From a virus, in the IMG/VR virus record IMGVR_UViG_3300030419_001062, positions 29,713 through 53,047 of that record: a DNA stretch of 23,335 nt. One strand, written 5' to 3'. This document shows, piece after piece, positions 265 through 17,764 of the stretch (positions are counted from its first letter, which is position 1; the number at the start of each line of letters is the position of its first letter). The notes below the pieces were generated by a model. That model saw only the letters and a program-made list of their open reading frames with translations, ran no database searches and was not told the DNA's origin. The translations under genes and the position numbers were made by a program.

Positions 265-528
265 CTATTCACAAGTATCACAAAGAAATCTATCTTTAAG
301 TTCTTCTTCGCTTACTTGATTTCCGTTATTGATTGTAAGATAGCCTTTAGACTTTATTGTATGTAAGTCATCCATTAACTTTGTCAAGTCATCAGGGCTT
401 TCTCCTGTTATTTTATTAACATTATCTCTGTAATAAACAACAGATTTATATAGTAATTTCCATTCATCATCATTGACAAGGATACCATATCTTTGATAAT
501 CGTTAGTTTTTTCTTCCATTTCTTTCAT
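265..528 (-). CDS. Small hypothetical protein (about 84-87 aa)
   Basis: This is an unrecognised small protein, mostly helical in appearance, with a CxxC pair at its extreme C-terminus (LCDTCE). Two in-frame starts are possible. The ATG at 528 has GGA directly against it, whereas the fourth codon (ATG at 519) has AAGGA about nine bases upstream and may be the true start, giving 84 aa. Either way its start lies inside the 3' end of the helicase gene (17-26 bp overlap), which suggests translational coupling. Function is unknown; the company of the helicase suggests a replication accessory role, but that is inference only. Confidence 0.65.
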   Translation of the reverse strand: MKEMEEKTNDYQRYGILVNDDEWKLLYKSVVYYRDNVNKITGESPDDLTKLMDDLHTIKSKGYLTINNGNQVSEEELKDRFLCDTCE

Positions 529-1846
529 TCCTTATTCTTATCGTTTCATTTAATGCATCATCAGATGAATCAACTACTGCACATCTATCACCTGCTACAC
601 CAAGATGAACGCTACCAGTTTTACCGTATCTATTCTTACCTAATACTATCTCCAGTCCATACTCTCCATTTTGAGAGTCTTCGTAGTAGTATCTCCAGTC
701 ATAATACATAAATAAAATCATTTCAGCGTCTTGCTCTATCGAACCCGAATCTCTTAAATCTCTCATTATAGGGCGTTTATTTTGTCTATTTTCACACTCT
801 CTATTTAATTGAGATAAAAGGATAGCAGACATATTATAAGTCTTACACGCTCTTTTGTATTGTTTCATAATAGAGTCAATTCTTAGTCTATTATCATCAA
901 TCCCTGGAACATCTATAAGACCTATATAGTCATCTATAACTACATCAGGTTTATACTTTCGTATTTCTCGCATGGCACTATCTATGTCAAAAAGATTATC
1001 AAACATTCTAAGGTCTTTAAAATCTTCTGAAATCTTTTTCCGTGCTTCTTCAGCATCTTCAGCATCTCCATCAATAAAGTTTCCAAGTCTCATTGATTCT
1101 GCTGATAGTTGTGATGATTCCATTACAATTAGTTTCTTCATCATTTCTATATTAGACATCTCACGATTAAAAACTAAAACCTTTCTACCTTCTTTCAATA
1201 ATCTTCTAACTATATTTATCATCATTGTCGATTTGAAATGCCCAGGTCTTCCTGCAATAACAGTAATTTCTTGTCTTGTCATTCCACCTGTTAGGTCGTC
1301 TAGTTTACTATAACCTGTGCTTATTAGATTTTCTGTGTTAAACATATTTTCAACAGATTCACCTAATAATTCATCCAAGTCAAAGTTTTTCTGAACTTCG
1401 AGATTTAGTATATCTTCTATTTCTCTATTAAGTTTAGATAGTGCTAGTGTCGAATCTTCCATTGAGCCAAATAGTGAATTTTGAATTTCAGTTGATTTTT
1501 TGATTATATTTCTCATCAACCATTTTTGATATACTATTTTAGCATATCTATTAGCAGTTGATGGACTTACTACATCTTGAACTAAATCAACTAAATATAA
1601 GGAAGGGCTATTACACCCTTTAGTATTTTCCCCTATATCGTGCAGTAATGTGATAGCATCAATCTTCTTTCCATTCTTCTGCATAGACATAATAGATTTC
1701 CATATTGTCTGGTGCCATGTAGAATAAAAACATTCATGCGTTGGTAAATACTCGTGGCAAGAATCATATTGATTATTATCACTTAGTATTGAACCAATTA
1801 CTGCTTTCTCCGCTTCTTCACTATGAGGCGATATTTGTCGTCTCAT
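503..1846 (-). CDS. DnaB-type replicative DNA helicase
   Basis: This is a 447-aa DnaB-family hexameric helicase that would unwind DNA at the phage replication fork. Residues 1-105 are an N-terminal DnaB-like helical domain (HSEEAEKAVIGSIL is typical). The RecA-like motor spans about 170-435: P-loop region IAGRPGHFKST (197-207), Walker B VVIDDY (302-307), the glutamine-containing H3-type segment ILLSQLNRE (342-350), an RDLRDSGSIEQDA segment (362-374), and the C-terminal LGKNRYGKTG loop. The P-loop is unusual: the Gly normally before the catalytic Lys is Phe (HFKS instead of xGKT). The start is clear, with AAAGGAGA just upstream, and it overlaps the 65-aa gene before it by four bases (ATGA). 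No primase domain is fused. Confidence 0.93.
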   Translation of the reverse strand: MRRQISPHSEEAEKAVIGSILSDNNQYDSCHEYLPTHECFYSTWHQTIWKSIMSMQKNGKKIDAITLLHDIGENTKGCNSPSLYLVDLVQDVVSPSTANRYAKIVYQKWLMRNIIKKSTEIQNSLFGSMEDSTLALSKLNREIEDILNLEVQKNFDLDELLGESVENMFNTENLISTGYSKLDDLTGGMTRQEITVIAGRPGHFKSTMMINIVRRLLKEGRKVLVFNREMSNIEMMKKLIVMESSQLSAESMRLGNFIDGDAEDAEEARKKISEDFKDLRMFDNLFDIDSAMREIRKYKPDVVIDDYIGLIDVPGIDDNRLRIDSIMKQYKRACKTYNMSAILLSQLNRECENRQNKRPIMRDLRDSGSIEQDAEMILFMYYDWRYYYEDSQNGEYGLEIVLGKNRYGKTGSVHLGVAGDRCAVVDSSDDALNETIRIRNERNGRKN

Positions 1847-4513: not shown

Positions 4514-4699
4514 CTAAACTCTTTTACGTTTTGCTTGAAAAACTGATTTTGGCAGTATTGTCTTTTGTGAATCAACATACTGTTCAACAAGTTCTCCAAG
4601 TTTGTCTTGTAAAATGTCTCCATTGATAGTACATATTAGTTTGAATTGTCTCCAAACTCCATCTTCGCAACGGAAACTTTTTGGTTTTAATTGTGTCAT
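4514..4699 (-). CDS. Small ribbon-helix-helix-like protein
   Basis: The frame can be extended to 4750, but the ATG at 4699 follows a purine-rich AAGAAGAGAGA ribosome site and starts a compact 61-aa protein, so I prefer it. The sequence SFRCEDGVWRQFKLICTING, followed by a helix DKLGELVEQYVDS, matches the usual rhythm of ribbon-helix-helix (CopG/Arc-like) DNA-binding proteins: strand, helix, turn, helix. If so it may regulate the leftward genes, possibly from the AT-rich 190-base leader in front of it. The C-terminal end is basic (QAKRKRV). Family assignment is by pattern only. Its stop lies three bases before the nuclease start. Confidence 0.6.
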   Translation of the reverse strand: MTQLKPKSFRCEDGVWRQFKLICTINGDILQDKLGELVEQYVDSQKTILPKSVFQAKRKRV

Positions 4700-4890
4700 G
4701 GCGTCTCTCTTCTTTAAAAATGCGTTTTTCTGCGTACATAAAATTAGCAAATTTCGAGATTTTTTAATAAATGTTTTAAATAAAACAATATATCAAAAAA
4801 TATCACTTGATTTTTTGCTTTTTCGCTGTCGCCTGGGCTGTCGTATCCCAGAAAAAAAACGATTTGTTCCATATTTATATGCCACAACTT
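4700..4890 (-). promoter_or_regulatory. AT-rich leader with a small hairpin, possible promoter
   Basis: This 191-base gap is very AT-rich. Bases 4833-4851 form a 5-bp GC hairpin (CTGGG with CCCAG) beside an eight-base A/T run, with two direct copies of GCTGTCG around it. The run of T precedes the hairpin on the minus strand, so it is not a standard terminator for the leftward genes. Further down there is a TTGATA element with only weak -10 candidates 17-19 bases later. A promoter for the regulator-nuclease group is plausible from context but is not proved by the sequence. Confidence 0.3.
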
Positions 4891-5547
4891 CTAAGAGATA
4901 ACGAATCCTCCACTTTTTAAGCAGAATGTAGCAAAGTTACGGACATTCTCTTTATCAATTTGGTAACTATTCTCAAAATGAGGGGTTTTCCCCTTACCAT
5001 TACAAGCGTTACAACCCTTGCATTTGTGTGCCCATTCATATCCTACATCCAAAGGTGAATTACCCGTTCTGTCTTTTGGTTTTAGACTATCGTGATGTTT
5101 TAACCACTCTTTCTCACTTTTCCATCCTTCCCATCCTTCTCTTGTTCCAGTACCTTCGCAACAATGGCATTCTTCATCTTCTAAAGTTGCTACAAATTTC
5201 TTTCTAGCATCTATTAGTTTATCAATACTACCATTGTCGAGTAGTGTCCAGAGTCTATTTCCAACTCGTGTAGCCTTATCAGACGTTATGCAATGACTGT
5301 CATTAAATCCACCTGCTAACATATCCTTTTCATCAAGAATATCAGTAGAAACAGAGCATACCATCTCCCATAGTGGTCTCCACCACCAATTATTGTTACG
5401 AAAGTATGCTCCATCTACTGTTTTCAGCAGATTAAAGTATTCCTCAGATTCTCTTTTATTACTCCAATCAAGAGGTTGAGGAATGGTCATTCCACTAGGC
5501 TGAATACCTGTTAAGTCGAATCCCATATCTACTGTAATCTCCTTCAT
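4891..5547 (-). CDS. Hypothetical protein with DnaJ-type zinc finger motifs
   Basis: This 218-aa protein is unrecognised overall but carries two CxxCxGxG motifs like the zinc-binding repeats of DnaJ: CHCCEGTG (127-134) and CNACNGKG (179-186), with an extra cysteine at 176 and an insertion of about 45 residues between the motifs. The N-terminal 120 residues include a very Trp-rich stretch (NNNWWWRPLWEMV, 51-63). No J-domain is present, so it is not a DnaJ. It starts inside the stop codon of the ParB-like gene (TAATG), without a clear ribosome site of its own, so it depends on coupling. A role in DNA modification or binding is possible, but nothing shows it. Confidence 0.72.
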   Translation of the reverse strand: MKEITVDMGFDLTGIQPSGMTIPQPLDWSNKRESEEYFNLLKTVDGAYFRNNNWWWRPLWEMVCSVSTDILDEKDMLAGGFNDSHCITSDKATRVGNRLWTLLDNGSIDKLIDARKKFVATLEDEECHCCEGTGTREGWEGWKSEKEWLKHHDSLKPKDRTGNSPLDVGYEWAHKCKGCNACNGKGKTPHFENSYQIDKENVRNFATFCLKSGGFVIS

Positions 5548-6326
5548 TATATGAAGCGTACAAATGACTGAGAGTGGAAGTTATAAACTCCTTCGAGTTC
5601 ACGACAACACTCCTGCCATTTAGAACAAGGTCTCAACTTTTGACTATACTTAGAGAGTCGTTTGCACATCCTTTCGTGATTGTACTCTGGATGGGTTAAG
5701 ATGTTTAATATAGCCATCATCCAACTTTTATTAACAGAGAAAGGCATCAATCTGCGAATATCGCCAGATAGAGTTGCCAATTCGTTTGCTTCATTGATGT
5801 TGGGGATTGCTAATGAACCATCTTTAAACTCATCAAACATAGCCTTTGAATACGTTCCATGATTAAGCATAGTTAATGCCATTGTATGGCTTAATGAATG
5901 CTTTCTCTTGAAACCAGCATATATTTTGTATGCAGAGTTTTCATTCTTAGCAAGATGATACTTTAACCAGTCTTGAGGACCCCACCTTTTCACATTTTGA
6001 GACACCATTCCGATGTCATTTACGTGCAAAGCGTCATCCACTTGGTAAAAGATTGGAAGTCCTAATTCCATTCTTGCTACAAAACGATGTTGTCCATCAT
6101 AGATTCTGAAATCAGAGTCTACAAGGATAGGGTACTTCTCTCCAAGGTCTTTTTTACGCAATGACCTTTTAAGTTGCTTAACAAATGGTTTCGTTACTTT
6201 CCTATTCTCGTCAAGAACGGAAAATAAAGAATAATCCATTGTCATCTTTGTTTGTGCATAGATTCCCATCTCTTGGTTAAGAGTTGGTTTTAACTCGGTA
6301 GTCATTGTCATTTTATTCTTAGACAT
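5547..6326 (-). CDS. ParB/Srx-fold domain protein
   Basis: The frame is open up to 6434, but that would run over the tRNA-like element. The ATG at 6326 has AAAGGAAA at good spacing and starts MSKNKMTMTT, so I use it (259 aa). Residues about 45-97 resemble a ParB/sulfiredoxin-fold domain: KYPILVDSDFRIYDGQHRF, then VARMELGLPIFYQV. The DGQHR box is the usual phosphate-binding GxxR motif of this superfamily. The remaining 160 residues look helical and could bind DNA. No ParA partner is visible, so plasmid-type partition is unlikely; in phages such proteins can be regulators, nucleases or modification enzymes. A perfect 8-bp inverted repeat in its leader may be its own operator. Confidence 0.72.
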   Translation of the reverse strand: MSKNKMTMTTELKPTLNQEMGIYAQTKMTMDYSLFSVLDENRKVTKPFVKQLKRSLRKKDLGEKYPILVDSDFRIYDGQHRFVARMELGLPIFYQVDDALHVNDIGMVSQNVKRWGPQDWLKYHLAKNENSAYKIYAGFKRKHSLSHTMALTMLNHGTYSKAMFDEFKDGSLAIPNINEANELATLSGDIRRLMPFSVNKSWMMAILNILTHPEYNHERMCKRLSKYSQKLRPCSKWQECCRELEGVYNFHSQSFVRFI

Positions 6327-6351
6327 AAGTATTTCCTTTATCATTGTTAAG

Positions 6352-6390
6352 ATATAGTGCTTTTGCCATACCAAATTACCTTCACTATAT
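6352..6390 (-). repeat. Inverted repeat in the leader of the ParB-like gene
   Basis: ATATAGTG and CACTATAT form a perfect 8-bp inverted repeat separated by 23 bases, and inside the loop TTTG can pair with CAAA. It lies between the tRNA-like element and the ribosome site of the ParB-like gene. It could be an operator for a dimeric protein or an mRNA hairpin. No U-run follows, so it is not an intrinsic terminator. Confidence 0.45.
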
Positions 6391-6400
6391 ACAAAATTGA

Positions 6401-6441
6401 GAATAGGGGAGGAATCGAACCTCCCTGCAACCATTCTATTC
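6401..6441 (-). ncRNA. Minimal tRNA-like element (acceptor stem plus T-arm, 41 nt)
   Basis: On the minus strand GAATAG pairs with CTATTC as an acceptor-like stem. It encloses a linker with AATGGTT (the usual tRNA D-loop sequence) and a perfect T-arm, GGAGG-TTCGATT-CCTCC, that can be extended to six pairs. Together the stems give 12 pairs, as in the acceptor-T stack of a real tRNA. There is no D-stem, anticodon arm or encoded CCA, so it cannot decode. It starts ten bases after the stop of the 95-aa gene. It shares 16 T-arm bases and GAATGGTT with the element at 11271-11345. It may be a processing signal, a tRNA mimic or a remnant. Confidence 0.55.
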
Positions 6442-6738: not shown

Positions 6739-7141
6739 TTGTAAACTCCTGTATTCCTGTTGTATTAACTATTCTTCCTTTTATTTTCTGAGAAAATGAT
6801 ACTATTATTTGATTGGTCTCATCTGCGTATTTCCAATAGTTAGGGACAACAAATGCCATTATCCCTGAATCGTCTTTCTTCTTGGTGCAAATAAAAATAT
6901 ACATTGTCCCTTCTTTCTTCTCTGGATTCCATTTGGCTTTAGAAATAAGCATAAAATCACCATTATACTTTTCCCAAGCACTCTCGAAATTGTCATAAAT
7001 ACCAGTTGCTTCAATCCAATCTAAACAAATTGAATCATCTGCACAGCATTTAAGCCAATCTTCGCCTTGGTCCTCAAGATTAATATCAGGAAGTACTGGT
7101 GCATTAAACTGCTCCAGATAGTATTCTTTTTCATGTTTCAT
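6731..7141 (-). CDS. Hypothetical protein (136 aa)
   Basis: This 136-aa acidic protein has alternating helices and strands, for example DFMLISKAKWNPEKKEGTMY and later ADETNQIIVSFSQKIKGRI, with three cysteines in the N-terminal half (C32, C33, C39) and one in the middle. No family is recognised. The start at 7141 is preceded by a weak AGGA site. Upstream is a strong hairpin that separates it from the 265-aa gene, so its expression may be partly uncoupled from the AAA+/VWA module. It overlaps the zinc-ribbon gene downstream by eight bases. Confidence 0.65.
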   Translation of the reverse strand: MKHEKEYYLEQFNAPVLPDINLEDQGEDWLKCCADDSICLDWIEATGIYDNFESAWEKYNGDFMLISKAKWNPEKKEGTMYIFICTKKKDDSGIMAFVVPNYWKYADETNQIIVSFSQKIKGRIVNTTGIQEFTNE

Positions 7142-7186
7142 AGTACATTGATTCCTATATTATTAAGTTTCCATAAAGTTCAAGAG

Positions 7187-7214
7187 AAGGGGGCATGGAA
7201 ACCCATACCCCCTT
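7187..7214 (-). terminator. Strong G/C hairpin, terminator-like or mRNA-stabilising
   Basis: On the minus strand AAGGGGGTATGG pairs with CCATGCCCCCTT over 12 positions with a single G-T wobble and a four-base loop. It lies 16 bases after the stop of the 265-aa gene. No clear U-run follows (CTCTTGAAC), so termination may be partial, or the hairpin may instead protect the 3' end of the AAA+/VWA message. Confidence 0.6.
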
Positions 7215-7230
7215 ATAGAAGTGGAGATGT

Positions 7231-8028
7231 TTATGCCTTTGGTAATTCGTCCGGCAAATGTACATCAACTTCTAAATCATCAAAGTTTGCTCTGACAATC
7301 TTCTCTTCCTCCATTTCAAGACCAACCTTCTCAAGCAATTTATTGACTGGCTTACCATCTATAGCATGGAGCATAGTCTTCATCATCATCTTTGCTTGGT
7401 CTATGTCGTTTGCAGTCAAGGAATCAATCATCTTTTCCATCTCTTTTACCATATAGTCTCTGTCACCTAATTTCCCCATATGCTTGGGGTCCAGTTGCAC
7501 AGAGTGGTAATCGTCTCCACCTTTATCCATCTCTGCTGATACTGCCTTTCTTAATTCAACAGGAGTATCTTTTGGAAACTCTACTGCTAAACCAATATGG
7601 TCGAAATGCAAATCAGCAATTTGGATTCTGATTCCTTCTTTGTTGTTAGGACCATCCTTGACTCCTACTTTCTCTAACTTGGACCATGCTTCTTGCAACA
7701 TTATCATCATCTGTACGTACATCTTGGCACATACATCAGCACGAGTTAGGTCCTTTTTAGCGAATCGATTTAGTGGAGGAAGTCTACCATTGTCATAATG
7801 ATGGTCAATTATAGACTCCCGTTCCTCTAAATAAGTAGTAATCACTCTAGCCAACTCTTGTGTATCTTTACACTTATTAGCCATGTGAATCATATCATTT
7901 TGCAATGCTTGGTGATATGTATCATCATGGTAAGAGCCACCTACAGGATACTCCAAGTTGGACCAGTCGATGTCTTTCTTTAAAGCAGAAAGGCTTCTAC
8001 CGTCCATAGAGTCACTTAACTTACTCAT
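7231..8028 (-). CDS. Unknown protein encoded with the AAA+/VWA pair (265 aa)
   Basis: This is an unrecognised 265-aa protein. The first half looks helical (for example DMIHMANKCKDTQELARVITTYLEE). The middle has a short beta segment (IRIQIADLHFDHIGLAVEFPKD), and the second half has two Met-rich helices (YMVKEMEKMIDSL; DQAKMMMKTMLHAI). No catalytic motif is obvious. It begins 16 bp after the VWA gene with a strong AAGGAG site and ends before a strong hairpin, so it looks like the third gene of the AAA+/VWA transcript. A partner or substrate-adaptor role for that module is a reasonable inference but is not shown. Confidence 0.72.
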   Translation of the reverse strand: MSKLSDSMDGRSLSALKKDIDWSNLEYPVGGSYHDDTYHQALQNDMIHMANKCKDTQELARVITTYLEERESIIDHHYDNGRLPPLNRFAKKDLTRADVCAKMYVQMMIMLQEAWSKLEKVGVKDGPNNKEGIRIQIADLHFDHIGLAVEFPKDTPVELRKAVSAEMDKGGDDYHSVQLDPKHMGKLGDRDYMVKEMEKMIDSLTANDIDQAKMMMKTMLHAIDGKPVNKLLEKVGLEMEEEKIVRANFDDLEVDVHLPDELPKA

Positions 8029-8044: not shown

Positions 8045-9055
8045 TTATTTAAGTCTTTTTATCGCATTGATAAAATCATCCGTTGTAAATATATTGTTAA
8101 TAATTCTTCTTCTTGCTTGACTTGGTAAGAGTTTTAAACTCTCTAACTTAGCAGTACCAAGCCAATCATCTAATTCATCGCCTCGGATATTCATAAACCA
8201 ATGAATTGTATTGTTCTCCATTGATTCACGTACTATTCTCCACCCGTCAGTATCTCCAAAGAATATTATATGTCTATTATGAAAATGTTTCCATCTAGCA
8301 ATCTTCTGTTCAAGTATAGTCTCAGCATCCATGAATTCAACAAACTTCTTTTTAACTGGACAAAACTTTCTTGTTATATATGCATTTGGTGCATCATACA
8401 TCTCCACAAGCCCATGTCCAATAACTGCTCTTGCTATATTAGCATACATCATTGCTTGTTCCGAACAAGAAGGACTTGTATCAAGTATTAATATAACTTT
8501 TTCCAACTCTCTATCTTTTCTACATATATGAATTGGAACTTTTGTCATCACTCTATTAAGTAATGCATCTTCATCCCAAAATTCATTGCCAGGGAATATG
8601 TCAGTACCACATTGGTCTTCAGCAAACTTAGAAATCATTATACTAACTGCGTTTCCAAGTCTTTTTATTCTATTGCCCCTCAATGAAACAATATCATTCA
8701 TATCATTGGCAATTTCAACCATCCCTCTGTTAAGTCCAGACTCTCTTGACCAATCAAGCATATTTGGAAAATCAGTATCGTATATTCTATCTTTGGTATC
8801 TTGTGGCATATCATAGAATGGAATCTCTTTAACCTCTTGAATACCTTTCTTTACGTCCTTCTTTTCACGTGGTTCTTTAAGTTTGGACTTTTTAAATTCT
8901 GGTTTTCGTTTCCTTGTTTCGTCTTTTGGAGGTTCCTTGGGTGACGAATAATCATCACCCAAGTTTGGTTTGTTTGTTTGTTGTATGTGAAAGTTAGATT
9001 TTTCACTCTCAACTTCAGAAACGGACCATTTCCTCCATTTTGTATTCAATCTCAT
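8045..9055 (-). CDS. VWA-domain protein (CobT/ViaA-like partner of the AAA+ ATPase)
   Basis: This 336-aa protein has a low-complexity, lysine-rich N-terminal region (about 35-75), a helical middle (about 80-175) and a C-terminal von Willebrand A fold. The metal-ion-dependent adhesion site is visible: VILILDTSPSC gives D192-x-S194-x-S196, and FFGDTDGW (266-272) supplies the later acidic metal ligand. VWA proteins of this type usually work with a MoxR/CobS-family ATPase (CobS-CobT, NorQ-NorD, RavA-ViaA), remodelling a target or inserting a metal. Its ATG overlaps the stop of the ATPase gene by four bases (ATGA), so the two are made together. No CobN is present, so a true cobalt chelatase is unlikely. 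Confidence 0.82.
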   Translation of the reverse strand: MRLNTKWRKWSVSEVESEKSNFHIQQTNKPNLGDDYSSPKEPPKDETRKRKPEFKKSKLKEPREKKDVKKGIQEVKEIPFYDMPQDTKDRIYDTDFPNMLDWSRESGLNRGMVEIANDMNDIVSLRGNRIKRLGNAVSIMISKFAEDQCGTDIFPGNEFWDEDALLNRVMTKVPIHICRKDRELEKVILILDTSPSCSEQAMMYANIARAVIGHGLVEMYDAPNAYITRKFCPVKKKFVEFMDAETILEQKIARWKHFHNRHIIFFGDTDGWRIVRESMENNTIHWFMNIRGDELDDWLGTAKLESLKLLPSQARRRIINNIFTTDDFINAIKRLK

Positions 9056-11226
9056 TTTGAGTATTTATCTCTCAATCTTTTGAGTTGAGTACAATTCACC
9101 TGTACGGACGTATCAGTATCATTCAGGTACCAGAAACAACATCTGTTTCCAAATGCAGTAAAACGTATACCTTTTGAGTTCCACAACGAAGACTTGACAT
9201 ATGGATATGGTATCCATCCGCCTTTCCCTGTTGATAACTCTTTCATTATGGCACGTGCATTTGTGCCATCAACAAAAGTATACATTGGGAATACACCTAG
9301 TTCTTCACATAATACTTCAATTAGTTTTTGACTCATGTTACCATGAATACGTAATTCAAGCATATGATAATCCCTAGTGTCATCATATCCACCAACTGTT
9401 ACCGAATCACACTTTACCCAGTCTGTATCAAAATACTCATGCTTCGCAATATCAATGCTACTTGATTGATACATTTGGAAGCCTTTTTCTTTCGATATAG
9501 CACCAACAATATTTGCCCAACGAGAACTTTTAATATGTCCATCTCTGAGGTGGAAACGAGTAACCCCAAATTCAGCAATATCATTGTATTTTCTCATCAA
9601 CTTAGTATTAACATTTGGCATATTATATTGTTCGACAAATGTATGTCTAGACGGACACCAATCAGAATCACTTTCAGAACTAGCCCACAATAAACACGCT
9701 CCACTGCTTCTACCCGTGGATAGTTCAGATTGCAGTCTATGTATAAATGAGACTGGTGTGATTATTTGTAGTCCAATTTCTTTAGTCCATCTAAAGTTAA
9801 TCTCCACTTTACTCTTGACGCCATTGCTTTGTTCTTCAAACACTCGTCTAGTTATAACTTCGTTAGTTGTCATAGACTTGACAATATGTCTATTGAACTT
9901 TGACATTCTCAGAAACTCACCACGTTCACAAGTAGATAGTGTCAGCATAACTTCACCAGACAACTGCTCTATTGTTTTTGTGATATTGGCAGGTTTACGA
10001 CCAACAATTTTACCAACCATTGGAACAATGTGTTTAAATGCTCCAGCCTGATTACCGTCCTTGCTATCGTGTCTTATTAATAAAGACTCAATATCAATAG
10101 GGTATTCAATAGCCAAAGAATCTGTACATTGTTTTATCCAAGTAAGATTGTATGGATTGTCGGTTGCCTCGCCTAAATAAGCCAATGCTGAGTACATTTC
10201 TTCTGAATTCTCCACAATGCCACCATTACTCTTGACTTGTTCAAGTTCAAAACATTGAACATTGTCATCAGATTTCCATTCAACTTGCTCCACCAATGAA
10301 GGTAGTTGTAGTTGATTTTCATCATCTGACGTTGGAACATCAAGATTTTCTGGAACATTACCATATTGTTTAGAATCAATCTTAGTTTTATGGACGCTGA
10401 TATAAGACTCAAAATCTTCCAAGTCTATATTTTCAGCATTCTTCAACATATGATGATTCTCTTCTGTTTTGGTAATGTACTGGCGAACCAGGGTATCCCA
10501 GTCAGCATACTTTCCAAGATAATCTATTGCATCAAGCAAATTTCTTAACTCTTGTATGGTTACTGGTTTCTCCATTTTACTTGCCAATGCTCTACAGTAT
10601 AAAACTAGAACATTAGGTAAGTATTTATGGTCCTTGTGAGTAGACAACAAAGCATCTTTAACCAACTTTGGATGTAGTTGCTCCATGTCTATTTTTGAGA
10701 ATCTACGAAGAAATGGCTCAGAGAAAGGTCGTTCATCATTGGATGTCAGCATAATCAAGAGATTATCCAGATTTGCTTGTATCTTTTCACCATTTTGAGG
10801 TGGCAATGGTAGTCTTCCAGATTGAAAGAAATCTAGAAAGTAACCATCTGCTGATGGACGACTCTTATCCCACTCGTCTAATACGAGGAGAACCCGTTCC
10901 TTCTGAGAAGCAATAGCGGCTTGGTAGATAGTAGATTGTTCGATAGTCATTCCACTAGGTGTGTCCTCACTAGGATACAACTTTAGTAGTAAATCAGTCT
11001 CATAAGTTCCAGGGCTGACTTGGTGCCAAAACATTTTGACATCTAGTATCTCAGCAAGAACTTCAGGAAGAAATGATTTACCAACACCTGCAGGACCATG
11101 TAGCATAACTCCACGAGTGGGTTTGCTATTTAGTCCAGACGCAACTTGTGTTACGAAGAGTGGTGAACAGATGTATCCTCTTGATTGCATACCATCATAG
11201 AGTGACTTGACATCTATTTTCTCCAT
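9052..11226 (-). CDS. MoxR/CobS-like AAA+ ATPase with a large C-terminal extension
   Basis: This 724-aa protein has a MoxR/CobS-type AAA+ domain in its first 250 residues: Walker A GPAGVGKS (44-51), Walker B VLLVLDEWD (112-120), sensor-1 Asn in MLTSNDERP (163), and an EPFLRRF arginine-finger segment (170-176). Such ATPases form hexamers that remodel partner proteins through a VWA adaptor. Residues from about 280 onward (around 440 aa) match nothing I recognise; they include an acidic linker (280-320) and a beta-rich C-terminal half. Usual MoxR proteins are only about 300-350 aa, so this is an unusual fusion or expansion. The stop overlaps the VWA start. The start has ATG preceded by AGTAAAAGG. 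A tRNA-like element lies in the leader. Confidence 0.86.
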   Translation of the reverse strand: MEKIDVKSLYDGMQSRGYICSPLFVTQVASGLNSKPTRGVMLHGPAGVGKSFLPEVLAEILDVKMFWHQVSPGTYETDLLLKLYPSEDTPSGMTIEQSTIYQAAIASQKERVLLVLDEWDKSRPSADGYFLDFFQSGRLPLPPQNGEKIQANLDNLLIMLTSNDERPFSEPFLRRFSKIDMEQLHPKLVKDALLSTHKDHKYLPNVLVLYCRALASKMEKPVTIQELRNLLDAIDYLGKYADWDTLVRQYITKTEENHHMLKNAENIDLEDFESYISVHKTKIDSKQYGNVPENLDVPTSDDENQLQLPSLVEQVEWKSDDNVQCFELEQVKSNGGIVENSEEMYSALAYLGEATDNPYNLTWIKQCTDSLAIEYPIDIESLLIRHDSKDGNQAGAFKHIVPMVGKIVGRKPANITKTIEQLSGEVMLTLSTCERGEFLRMSKFNRHIVKSMTTNEVITRRVFEEQSNGVKSKVEINFRWTKEIGLQIITPVSFIHRLQSELSTGRSSGACLLWASSESDSDWCPSRHTFVEQYNMPNVNTKLMRKYNDIAEFGVTRFHLRDGHIKSSRWANIVGAISKEKGFQMYQSSSIDIAKHEYFDTDWVKCDSVTVGGYDDTRDYHMLELRIHGNMSQKLIEVLCEELGVFPMYTFVDGTNARAIMKELSTGKGGWIPYPYVKSSLWNSKGIRFTAFGNRCCFWYLNDTDTSVQVNCTQLKRLRDKYSK

Positions 11227-14005: not shown

Positions 14006-14206
14006 ATGAAGACAACATCTATACACAATGCACGACACCATTGTGCTAACTTTTGGACAGGGAAATGCTTAGGTGCTATGTTTACACGGATGTCTGGCTC
14101 ACTAACCTGTAGGATAGATGGTAAATTCGCAAATAAAGATTGCGTTGTAGAGAAAGGATGTACTTATTTTGAGCAAACTGTTGTTCCAGGAATTAAGGGA
14201 CTCTAA
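14006..14206 (+). CDS. Small cysteine-rich protein (66 aa)
   Basis: This 66-aa protein carries five cysteines (C13, C21, C35, C46, C52) and conserved-looking segments CANFWTGKCLG and CRIDGKF, ending with CTYFEQTVVPGIKGL. The spacing suggests a zinc or iron-sulfur site. I do not recognise a named family. There is no clear ribosome site before the ATG, so the exact start is uncertain. Its last 38 bases overlap the metallophosphoesterase gene if that gene uses the TTG start, which suggests the two are coupled. It is the first gene of the rightward block. Confidence 0.68.
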   Translation: MKTTSIHNARHHCANFWTGKCLGAMFTRMSGSLTCRIDGKFANKDCVVEKGCTYFEQTVVPGIKGL

Positions 14207-14996
14207 AAAGAAGACCCCTAAGAAAAGAAAACATAGAAGGGCAATCGTAATACCTGATTGTCACTTCCCTTTACAATACCAACCAGCAGTAAACTGCGTT
14301 CTGAAGGCTATCGAGATGATAAAGCCTAATATATTCATATGCTTGGGAGATTTAGGAGAGTGGCATAGCGTTTCGCCCTTCAAATATAAGAGAAGAAAGA
14401 GACCACCACTTGAATACATCTTAAAAGAGGTAGAAAAAGAAGAAAAACAAGTGAATGCTGGTTTGGACCAGTTTGATAAAGTATTAAAATCTGTCAAATG
14501 TGAAGAAAAGCACATGATAGAAGGTAATCACGATGCTTGGCTTAATTATTTCGTAGATGAGTTCCCTTATCTACCACAATACAAGTTTCCAGAGATAATG
14601 AGGCTAAAAGAACGTGGATATAAGTATTATCCTTATGGTAAGTTTGTCAAGATGGGTAAATTGTATATGTATCACGGAGGTCACTACTCTACAATTAACC
14701 ATACTAGACAACACGCAATGAATTTAGGAAAAAATATTCTTTACGGACATACACACGATGTTCAACGTAGTGGTATGACCCATGTAGATGGTGCCCACCA
14801 TGCATTTTCTTTAGGATGTCTGAAAGATATGACATCTGAGGCGAATATGTGGCTTCGGGGTAGGACTACAAATTGGGCTCATGCATTCGCAGTTATAGAT
14901 TGGTTCCCTAATGGCGACTTCAGGATTGATGTTGTCGACATCCATAACGGCAGAACATTCGTATGGGGTGAAGAAATAAACGGGAACAAGGAGTAA
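14169..14996 (+). CDS. Calcineurin-like metallophosphoesterase
   Basis: This 275-aa protein has the metal-binding motifs of calcineurin-like phosphoesterases: D30 and H32 in VIPDCHFP, D61 in CLGDLGEW, N120 and H121 in EGNHDAW, H169/H172 in YHGGHYS, and GHTH (193-196). The family uses two metal ions to hydrolyse phosphoesters, on nucleic acids, nucleotides or proteins; the substrate here is unknown. The first frame start is TTG at 14169, with AAAGGA about ten bases upstream; a second TTG at 14181 is possible. No ATG lies before the first motif. The basic N-terminus (DSKKKTPKKRKHRR) is notable. It precedes the terminase genes. Confidence 0.85.
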   Translation: MSKLLFQELRDSKKKTPKKRKHRRAIVIPDCHFPLQYQPAVNCVLKAIEMIKPNIFICLGDLGEWHSVSPFKYKRRKRPPLEYILKEVEKEEKQVNAGLDQFDKVLKSVKCEEKHMIEGNHDAWLNYFVDEFPYLPQYKFPEIMRLKERGYKYYPYGKFVKMGKLYMYHGGHYSTINHTRQHAMNLGKNILYGHTHDVQRSGMTHVDGAHHAFSLGCLKDMTSEANMWLRGRTTNWAHAFAVIDWFPNGDFRIDVVDIHNGRTFVWGEEINGNKE

Positions 14997-16052: not shown

Positions 16053-16200
16053 GAGAAAGAATGGTGAGTGGCGTGAACAAATTAATTTCACAGATGGCAT
16101 ATTTAATGATTATTTAGATATTGATGTATTTAATGTAAAAAAAAGAAAGAAGAAGAATGTCAAAAAAAGCAACATTCAACATAACACCAGGTCCCAATGA
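16042..16200 (+). CDS. Possible small basic protein overlapping terminase (52 aa)
   Basis: A 52-codon frame (starts MKRKRKNGEWREQINF) overlaps the zinc-ribbon gene by 11 bases and the start of the large terminase by 44 bases. It has two clusters of lysine and arginine, one at each end. It has no clear ribosome site. If it is real, the terminase could start at its second ATG (16202), just after this stop. The overlap pattern is tempting, but evidence is thin. Confidence 0.3.
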   Translation: MKRKRKNGEWREQINFTDGIFNDYLDIDVFNVKKRKKKNVKKSNIQHNTRSQ

Positions 16201-17764
16201 AATGGCAGAGCGAGATAAACTTCTCGCACAGTCAATGGAGAGTTTGGTGTATTTTGGTAGAGCATTCTTACCTAAAGACTTTCTACATAAGAGTGCATCT
16301 CCTGATTTCCATTTTGATATAGCAAAAAAATTAACACAGCACGAATCAGGTGCTCGTATATGTAATATTATCCCACGTGGCTTTGGCAAGTCTATTCTAT
16401 CTAAATCTGCTATTCTACATAAATTATTATTCTCACCAAAAGAGAAACAGCAATTCATTGCTTGGGTAGCAGAAGAACAAGGTCAGGCTATTGACCATTT
16501 AAAATATATTAAGAATCATTTAGAGTATAATCAGCAAATAAGGTATTATTTTGGTAATCTCGCTGGTGACGCAGTAGGTAACAGATGGACTGAGAAAGAT
16601 ATTGTTACTGCTACTGGAGACAGAATAATGGCAAAAGGTACATCACAGCGTCTACGTGGTCGTAGTGAGGTTGATGTTCGCTATACTGGTATTGTACTTG
16701 ATGACTTTGAATCTGAATTAAATACAAAAACACCTGAAAGACGCCAAGAGATAAAACAATGGATTGTTTCAACTGTTTATCCTGCATTAGAAGAATCTAA
16801 AGGGAATGAAGGTTGGATATGGTTATTAGGCACTATTGTACATTATGACAGTTTTCTTCAAATGGTTGTTGATGGATTCAATGAGGCTGTAGAGAATGAA
16901 AAGAGTTATCCTTGGGATGTGACATTTTACAGGGCAATAAGAGATGATGGTAGCCCATTATGGGAATCTCAGTTCCCATTGGAGAAGTTAGAGCAGAAAA
17001 GACGTGAGTTCATAGAAGCAGGTCTTGTCAATAAATTTGCTCAAGAGTATATGAATGATGCACGTGATATTACTAATGCGTCATTTAAGGTGGATAGAAT
17101 ACAATATCATAACGGGAGATTTGAAGTTAAAGATAAACAGACGTTTTTAATTATCAATGACGATGCAATCCCTATAAATGTTTATATTGGCGTTGACCTT
17201 GCGGCTACTGCTACTAATACATCAGACTATCAAGCAATAGTTGTTCTTGGTGTCGATGCTGAGAATAATAGATATGTTTTAGAATACTTTAGAGAACGTA
17301 TCCCTACATTCGATGTACCAGACGAAATTATAAAATTATGTAAACAGTATGCACCAATCCGTCGTGCTACTATTGAGACTGTTGCCGCACAAGAAATGGT
17401 TAGAGATATGCTATCAAGGATGGCAGTATCAGATAGAAGATTGATGCCAGGTCTTTTTAAAGGTGTAAAGCCTGTTGGTAGAATAAAGAAAGAAGATAGA
17501 CTTGAAACTGCATTAGGTCCTATTGTTAATAATAAAAGATTATATATAAGACGCTCAATGACTGACCTAGTTGATGAGTTCTTTGAACACCCAATGTCAA
17601 GACATGATGATGTTATGGACGCATTGTACTATGCTGATTATTATGCCAAGGCTCCAAGAAGTGGCAGATTTAGTGCCAGTGAGTTGAGCGATGAAGAACT
17701 ATGGAAGAAAAACCAAGCAAAAAAATCAGCAGTTTTCAACTGGATAACAGGTGCCAGAATTTAG
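16157..17764 (+). CDS. terL: Terminase large subunit
   Basis: This 535-aa protein is the packaging motor. The ATPase half shows a Walker A-like PRGFGKS (73-79) and Walker B GIVLDDFE (178-185, acidic residues D182, D183, E185). The nuclease half has an RNase H-like fold with D347 (IGVDLAATATNTSDYQ), E407 (ATIETVAAQE) and the HDDVMDALYYA motif (483-493). These are the expected residues for cutting concatemeric DNA. The ATG at 16157 follows a purine-rich stretch (AGAAAGAAGAAGA); an internal ATG at 16202 is an alternative. Length and layout are typical. It lies before the portal gene, the usual phage order. Confidence 0.95.
   Translation: MSKKATFNITPGPNEMAERDKLLAQSMESLVYFGRAFLPKDFLHKSASPDFHFDIAKKLTQHESGARICNIIPRGFGKSILSKSAILHKLLFSPKEKQQFIAWVAEEQGQAIDHLKYIKNHLEYNQQIRYYFGNLAGDAVGNRWTEKDIVTATGDRIMAKGTSQRLRGRSEVDVRYTGIVLDDFESELNTKTPERRQEIKQWIVSTVYPALEESKGNEGWIWLLGTIVHYDSFLQMVVDGFNEAVENEKSYPWDVTFYRAIRDDGSPLWESQFPLEKLEQKRREFIEAGLVNKFAQEYMNDARDITNASFKVDRIQYHNGRFEVKDKQTFLIINDDAIPINVYIGVDLAATATNTSDYQAIVVLGVDAENNRYVLEYFRERIPTFDVPDEIIKLCKQYAPIRRATIETVAAQEMVRDMLSRMAVSDRRLMPGLFKGVKPVGRIKKEDRLETALGPIVNNKRLYIRRSMTDLVDEFFEHPMSRHDDVMDALYYADYYAKAPRSGRFSASELSDEELWKKNQAKKSAVFNWITGARI

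Follow-up and report, generated by a model that had tools for sequence, protein, structure and literature searches.

A phage-encoded MoxR-type AAA+ ATPase and its VWA-type partner: a probable two-part protein-remodeling machine inherited as a unit in a marine phage lineage

In the NorQ-NorD system, the VWA domain of NorD is seated on the AAA+ ring, reaches into the pore with a finger and relays the ATP-driven motion of the ring to the target. Its metal ion-dependent adhesion site (MIDAS) is required for function, whereas binding to the ring does not depend on it (PMC9976466, PMC13036017). MoxR-VWA pairs are also known from several groups of viruses, where their job has been guessed, often as cobalt chelation, save in one archaeal virus. 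Here we describe such a pair in a 23,335-nucleotide stretch of viral DNA (hereafter the window), which covers bases 29,713–53,047 of the virus record IMGVR_UViG_3300030419_001062 (53,047 bases in total). The pair lies on the minus strand of the window and consists of a 724-residue ATPase (9052..11226) and a 336-residue VWA-type protein (8045..9055). Judged from sequences and structure models, these two proteins probably constitute an ATP-driven, two-part protein-remodeling machine of the NorQ-NorD or CbbQ-CbbO kind, which belongs to a new family and is kept as a unit together with replication genes.

Relatives of the ATPase were located using a degenerate DEWDK[ST]RP pattern and profile scans of IMG/VR, which returned at least 44 virus contigs (counted by contig name) besides the window. 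The AAA+ core of the window ATPase (residues 1–270) carries all the catalytic motifs of the MoxR type, as an earlier note on this DNA had already read from its letters (GPAGVGKS, VLLVLDEWD and EPFLRRF). These are the Walker A motif GPAGVGKS (residues 44–51; 11074..11097), in which G44, G47, G49 and K50 are invariant, the Walker B motif LLVLDEWD (residues 113–120; 10867..10890) with invariant D117, E118, W119 and D120, the invariant sensor 1 residue N163, and the candidate arginine fingers R174-R175 (10702..10707), which are invariant in the 41 relatives. The Pfam family AAA_5 scored 36.5 bits against a cut-off of 22 bits and was found in 41 of 41 relatives. An AlphaFold model based on the alignment of these 41 relatives was confident in the core and less so in the C-terminal half (mean predicted local distance difference test score 72, predicted template modeling score 0.45). 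When this model was compared to the PDB using Foldseek, NorQ chains occupied 18 of the top 19 places (TM-score by target 0.65–0.75, with around 255 residues aligned) and CbbQ2 was found at rank 8. In a viral structure library the model matched MoxR/CobS-like phage ATPases with TM-scores by query of at most 0.30, which is expected if the core alone aligns. By its sequence, its fold and its linked VWA partner, the ATPase is a MoxR-type AAA+ protein. The identity of a defense system was considered as well and found no support: the PADLOC matches were weak and confined to the AAA core, and those to the NCBIfam 'MadB ATPase' (at most 49 bits compared to a cut-off of 475) are unspecific, as this model rang below its cut-off in 14 of 14 control genomes.

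The AAA core also matched PHROG 249, which is CobS-like and annotated as 'porphyrin biosynthesis', in 40 of the 41 relatives. This match would suit a cobalt chelatase in which the pair, as the CobS-CobT-like part, joins forces with the CobN of the host, a use of host CobN that has been proposed for viral cobST clusters, which derive from hosts of eight orders (PMC8651126). However, PHROG 249 matched the core only, and the clamp-loader family PHROG 168 did so equally well and in 41 of 41 relatives. Moreover, no PHROG family matched the VWA protein in more than one relative, and the nearest fold of the ATPase was NorQ rather than a chelatase. Neither CobN, the lack of which the earlier note had also remarked upon, nor a ribonucleotide reductase was found in the 16 carrier records, while the controls rang in 5 out of 14 genomes. 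We consider cobalt chelation a very improbable role for this pair.

The MIDAS of the partner protein is marked by a DxSxS motif (DTSPS), directly followed by Cys197 (8465..8482), and by the sequence GDTDG (8243..8257), which contains D268, probably the last MIDAS residue, as well as D270. The MIDAS residues D192, S194, S196 and D268 were invariant in 34 of 34 VWA relatives, and the same was true for D270, C178, C197, R168, R261, P223 and N224. As a side observation, given the invariance of C178, C197 and the second aspartate D270, and the position of C197 right after DxSxS, a disulfide or a metal site would be conceivable here. An AlphaFold model built from the 34 relatives predicted an alpha/beta protein and was confident from around residue 80 onwards. 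In the PDB, its two best matches (E = 2.1e-3 with probability 0.96, and E = 5.7e-3 with probability 0.82) were both to chain G of the NorQ-NorD complex, and we read this chain as NorD from its place in the NorQ-NorD entries. This match is strengthened by the fact that the ATPase, searched separately, found the other subunit of the same cryo-electron microscopy complex. Its motifs and, more modestly, its modeled fold point to a VWA-type protein in which most MIDAS residues are present.

The two genes are tightly linked. In the window, the stop codon of the ATPase gene and the start codon of the VWA gene share four bases, ATGA, at 9052–9055, an overlap that the earlier note had described correctly, and no ribosome-binding site was evident before the VWA gene. 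Of the distinct ATPase genes, 34 were followed by 600 or more bases of sequence; in all of these the VWA gene came next on the same strand, and the frames overlapped in 30. Since these sequences have a median AAA-domain identity of 50%, such linkage is far beyond chance. The slot behind the VWA gene was nearly always filled as well, by a protein of 130–310 residues, and in 27 loci by members of one family. In the window it holds a 265-residue protein (7231..8028, minus strand), a possible accessory of uncertain family membership; its match to this family in hmmsearch (E = 0.008, against 12 third-slot proteins) is made more believable by its position, which is no proof. Profile comparison did not unite the third-slot proteins of the other subclades with the 27-locus family, and they appear to be unrelated. 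Of the three-gene grouping envisaged earlier, the adjacency of ATPase and VWA genes held throughout (34/34), whereas for the third gene, as far as sequence comparison can tell, the position is better conserved than the protein that occupies it. The proposal that the 265-residue protein serves as an adaptor was likewise not established, given the E = 0.008 match and the apparently unrelated proteins in other subclades, and such a role is possible. Third-slot proteins without detectable homology often end alike (-EA, -ES, -KS or -KA); the idea that this C-terminal tail acts as a MIDAS ligand was left unproven, as the acidic residue varies.

The ATPase is oversized, as pointed out in the earlier note, and 400–440 of its 724 residues lie outside any recognized family. 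The C-terminal half proper (residues 325–724; 9055..10254, minus strand) was recognized by none of the libraries: no Pfam family was found in more than one of 33 relatives, no PHROG family matched it, and a sequence search of the PDB returned nothing better than E = 0.6. Profile self-comparison did not find an internal repeat. Its best-conserved part spans residues 424–489 (GE....E-I-A-R....D-R-W....G....I), and the AlphaFold model predicts alpha/beta structure in regions 330–502 and 585–724. The large size is a family trait, with 30 of the 32 complete relatives measuring 679–793 residues; the other two, of 460 and 504 residues, imply that the full extension is dispensable in some members. Pairs of members of the phage clade shared a median identity of 57% in the AAA core and 33% in the VWA domain; the corresponding values were 17% in the C-terminal half and 16% in the N-terminus of the VWA protein. 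The identities of the C-terminal half and the VWA domain were correlated with r = 0.91, compared to 0.77 for the AAA core with either of them (raw values that ignore kinship). The former value fits a C-terminal half that meets the VWA protein or shares its partner.

By analogy with NorQ-NorD, one would expect the VWA subunit of the phage pair to hold a protein that the machine remodels. The ATPase would assemble into a hexameric ring with the VWA protein docked on it, the metal site of the latter would hold the target, and ATP hydrolysis would then push the target into another conformation. For the C-terminal half, which evolves rapidly and in parallel with the VWA protein, the likeliest points of contact are this protein, the third-slot protein or the target, and it might add a binding surface in the form of a new target or adaptor domain. 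The remodeling machine suggested in the earlier note stands in outline, as a pair recognized by sequence, fold and linkage, without the epithets 'phage-specific' and 'adaptor'. Several observations weigh against a machine of the NorQ-NorD kind. No Pfam family exceeded its cut-off on the 336-residue protein, the best being VWA_CoxE with E = 0.22 for the window protein and 0.003 for a relative, and the fold match of this protein was modest (E = 2.1e-3, TM-scores 0.29/0.37). In addition, no MIDAS loop-2 threonine was conserved between residues 224 and 261 in the 34 VWA relatives, so that the 'intact metal site' noted previously is four-fifths supported, through D192, S194, S196 and D268. Lastly, the C-terminal half of the ATPase was modeled with low to moderate confidence and without a known fold, and the identity correlations between the ATPase and VWA parts are not phylogeny-corrected.

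To which phages does the pair belong? Most carriers share the terminase, portal and DnaB genes with the window, with mostly 66–72% identity for the terminase and 40–59% for DnaB. Terminases of cultured phages were 24–26% identical among the matches listed, and capsid matches were 25–28% identical. A tblastn search with the ATPase, the VWA protein, the third gene and two relatives returned no match in 50,697 phage records, close-relative scans with single window proteins found no relative, and two weak matches in plasmids were limited to the AAA core. By sequence comparison, most carriers are members of one marine phage group without a close cultured relative. Terminases related to that of the window were present in at least 530 out of 600 sampled stretches, and they mark an abundant group of marine phages that seems to lack cultured members.

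As the earlier contigs had been found via the pair itself, we repeated the search with the terminase as a control for this bias. Eleven of the loci retrieved extended 9.5 kb or more upstream, into the region in which the pair is expected; four of them carried both genes and seven carried neither. Both genes were absent from 16 whole records of this search, including those of the seven loci; the VWA profile rang in six other records and was silent in one of the seven non-carriers in the same search. In a tree of the terminases, one change is enough to part 32 carriers from the seven non-carriers (support 99/98; seen in 98% of bootstrap trees), and this unrooted tree is compatible with one gain of the pair as well as with one loss. 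The pair is inherited as one overlapping unit and defines a marine phage lineage. The non-carrier sister lineage keeps homologous terminase, portal, scaffold-position and capsid genes, and small unrecognized open reading frames (ORFs) fill the stretch that corresponds to the pair.

The position of the pair bears on its target. Terminase, portal and capsid genes run rightward, while the pair has a conserved position in a separate leftward block with ParB-like, PDDEXK, Rad52/exonuclease-like and DnaB genes. In the window, the next conserved gene of this block outside the pair encodes a ParB-like protein (5547..6434, minus strand; PHROG 12305, E = 8.8e-18; shared cluster c24), and the block terminates at the DnaB replicative helicase (503..1846, minus strand; DnaB_C, E = 2.4e-51). 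In an unrelated 109-kb contig of the virus database, the pair was likewise found near a DnaB helicase, a DnaD-like loader and a replication initiator. Because the pair sits with replication and recombination genes and not with virion genes, a host or replication-phase protein is more likely as its target than a structural one. Alternatively, the pair could be a virion-assembly chaperone that remodels a capsid, tail or internal virion protein, for which p618/p892 of Acidianus two-tailed virus and a jumbo-phage pair are precedents (PMC7911831, PMC7824862). Large internal or tail proteins, of 1,025 and 1,892 residues, are indeed among the products of these phages and perhaps need help in assembly. 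Such a role is unlikely in our view, considering that the pair is located away from the rightward virion genes and that the sister lineage builds on homologous terminase, portal, scaffold-position and capsid genes without it.

The pair is also found in cells. Full-length chromosomal copies were present in 7 of 245 genomes of the class of Salinibacter-type bacteria, so that the term 'phage-specific' was not established in its strict sense; in each of two other phyla, the one already known genome remained alone, among 395 and 136 genomes, respectively. Several of the Salinibacter-type chromosomes carry a fumarate-reductase/succinate-dehydrogenase flavoprotein gene upstream of the pair and a GlpA-like gene for a flavin adenine dinucleotide (FAD)-dependent protein downstream (L049 7511–17105, L178–L180), and in an unrelated metagenome-assembled genome a GlpD-like FAD gene lies directly upstream (L048 8013–12311). 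These neighbors would be in line with a factor for the maturation or inactivation of an FAD-dependent dehydrogenase, by which phages might adjust the respiration of their host. A comparable link is known for the E. coli RavA-ViaA pair, which is reported to interact with fumarate reductase (PMC10585395). However, these are essentially two independent cases, with a gap of around 600 bases in Salinibacter; two related genomes had no flavoprotein neighbor in the stretch read, and the phage copies of the pair showed no gene of this kind nearby. We regard this role as quite unlikely.

Another alternative is a counter-defense or host-takeover device, with which the phage would disarm a defense or regulatory protein of the host by remodeling it. 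MoxR-vWA pairs do occur in bacterial conflict systems (PMC7159879), the small unrecognized ORFs in the corresponding stretch of the sister lineage mark a usual place for host-takeover genes, and the rapid divergence of the C-terminal half would be in keeping with a target that changes. On the other hand, no known anti-defense family was recognized, the PADLOC matches concern the AAA core, and the chromosomal Salinibacter copies are better suited to a housekeeping target. A device of this sort is possible, if doubtful; it and a part in virion assembly are the chief competitors of our preferred reading. These judgments overlap in part with our preferred explanation, as the alternatives concern the target while the two-part remodeling machine concerns the mechanism. 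A wider proposal, which we put forward tentatively and at less than even confidence, is that of a new viral AAA+/VWA family, whose ATPase carries its own new, fast-evolving domain for binding a target or adaptor. This family would have been fixed once in a lineage of uncultured marine phages, where it would work early in infection on a target that belongs to the host or the replisome, and it would also exist as a settled chromosomal pair in Salinibacter-type bacteria.

Given its strict linkage, its lineage-defining distribution and its location away from cobalamin genes, the pair offers a clean case for studying the role of such machines in infection. The split between carriers and non-carriers in the terminase tree supplies natural controls, and the unrecognized C-terminal half stands out as a candidate in the search for new target-recognition domains. 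Salinibacter is a cultivated genus, and its chromosomal copies offer a possible genetic entry point that is lacking for the uncultured phages.

Several other features of the record deserve mention. Its ends (bases 1–602 and 52446–53047, the latter forming the end of the window) match with 92% identity over around 600 bases, from which we conclude that the record is probably close to a whole genome that is terminally redundant or circularly permuted. The imperfect nature of this match suggests an assembly from slightly different strains. Beside the terminase block, a calcineurin-like phosphoesterase gene (14169–14996) is common to 26 carrier loci and was recognized in one of seven non-carrier loci. 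In the virion-gene block, the C-terminal stretch (CIPEGTSIDTPDGDGFNTIENIKVGDKVIGYNG...) of a 387-residue protein (record bases 16139–17302) resembles a Hint/intein-type domain by eye. Also judged by eye, the tail-gene region of stretch L002 encodes a 409-residue collagen-like protein with (GPT)n repeats (4642–5871) and a protein similar to 2-oxoglutarate-Fe(II) oxygenases (7070–7630).

How does the pair compare with described systems? It shares with NorQ-NorD the arrangement of two linked genes for a MoxR AAA+ protein and a VWA protein, and NorQ-NorD provides the nearest fold for both window proteins, albeit more weakly for the VWA protein. NorQ measures around 30 kDa without a large C-terminal extension, and NorD around 70 kDa with a full MIDAS including the threonine (PMC9976466). 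In the phage pair, by contrast, the ATPase is the large partner and the VWA protein the small one, the MIDAS lacks a conserved threonine, and there was no sign of a nitric oxide reductase context. With the rubisco activase CbbQ-CbbO, the similarity lies in the fold of the AAA core (6l1q at rank 8, 5c3c at rank 20), whereas the large C-terminal half sets the phage ATPase apart and no carboxysome or rubisco context was seen. Indeed, no gene for a metal-enzyme or rubisco target was recognized in the window. Members of the NorQ-NorD/CbbQ-CbbO subfamily typically carry a CbbQ_C domain behind the AAA core; CbbQ_C (PF08406) was absent from the families listed for the 41 ATPase relatives. The viral CobS-CobT clusters are likewise phage-borne AAA+/VWA gene pairs, with PHROG 249 matching the core, but here CobN and ribonucleotide reductase were found neither nearby nor in the records, and no phage family matched the VWA protein in more than one relative. 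Phage N4 also has neighboring AAA and VWA-like genes, gp24 and gp25, the latter differing in being a metallopeptidase-like protein of DUF2201_N and DUF2201; family-level kinship was not supported, as profile comparison gave probabilities of 2.5% and 15%. RavA-ViaA is again a MoxR AAA+/VWA pair, and its reported link to fumarate reductase (PMC10585395) recalls the FAD-dehydrogenase genes beside some cellular copies; compared by fold, it is missing from the 50 top-ranked matches listed for the ATPase. Finally, p618/p892 of Acidianus two-tailed virus and the MoxR-vWA pairs of jumbo phages are virus-encoded too, with a chaperone role that was reported or proposed (PMC7911831, PMC7824862). Compared by description, those pairs are linked to the development of virion tails or, as proposed, to virion assembly, whereas the pair described here lies beside replication genes.

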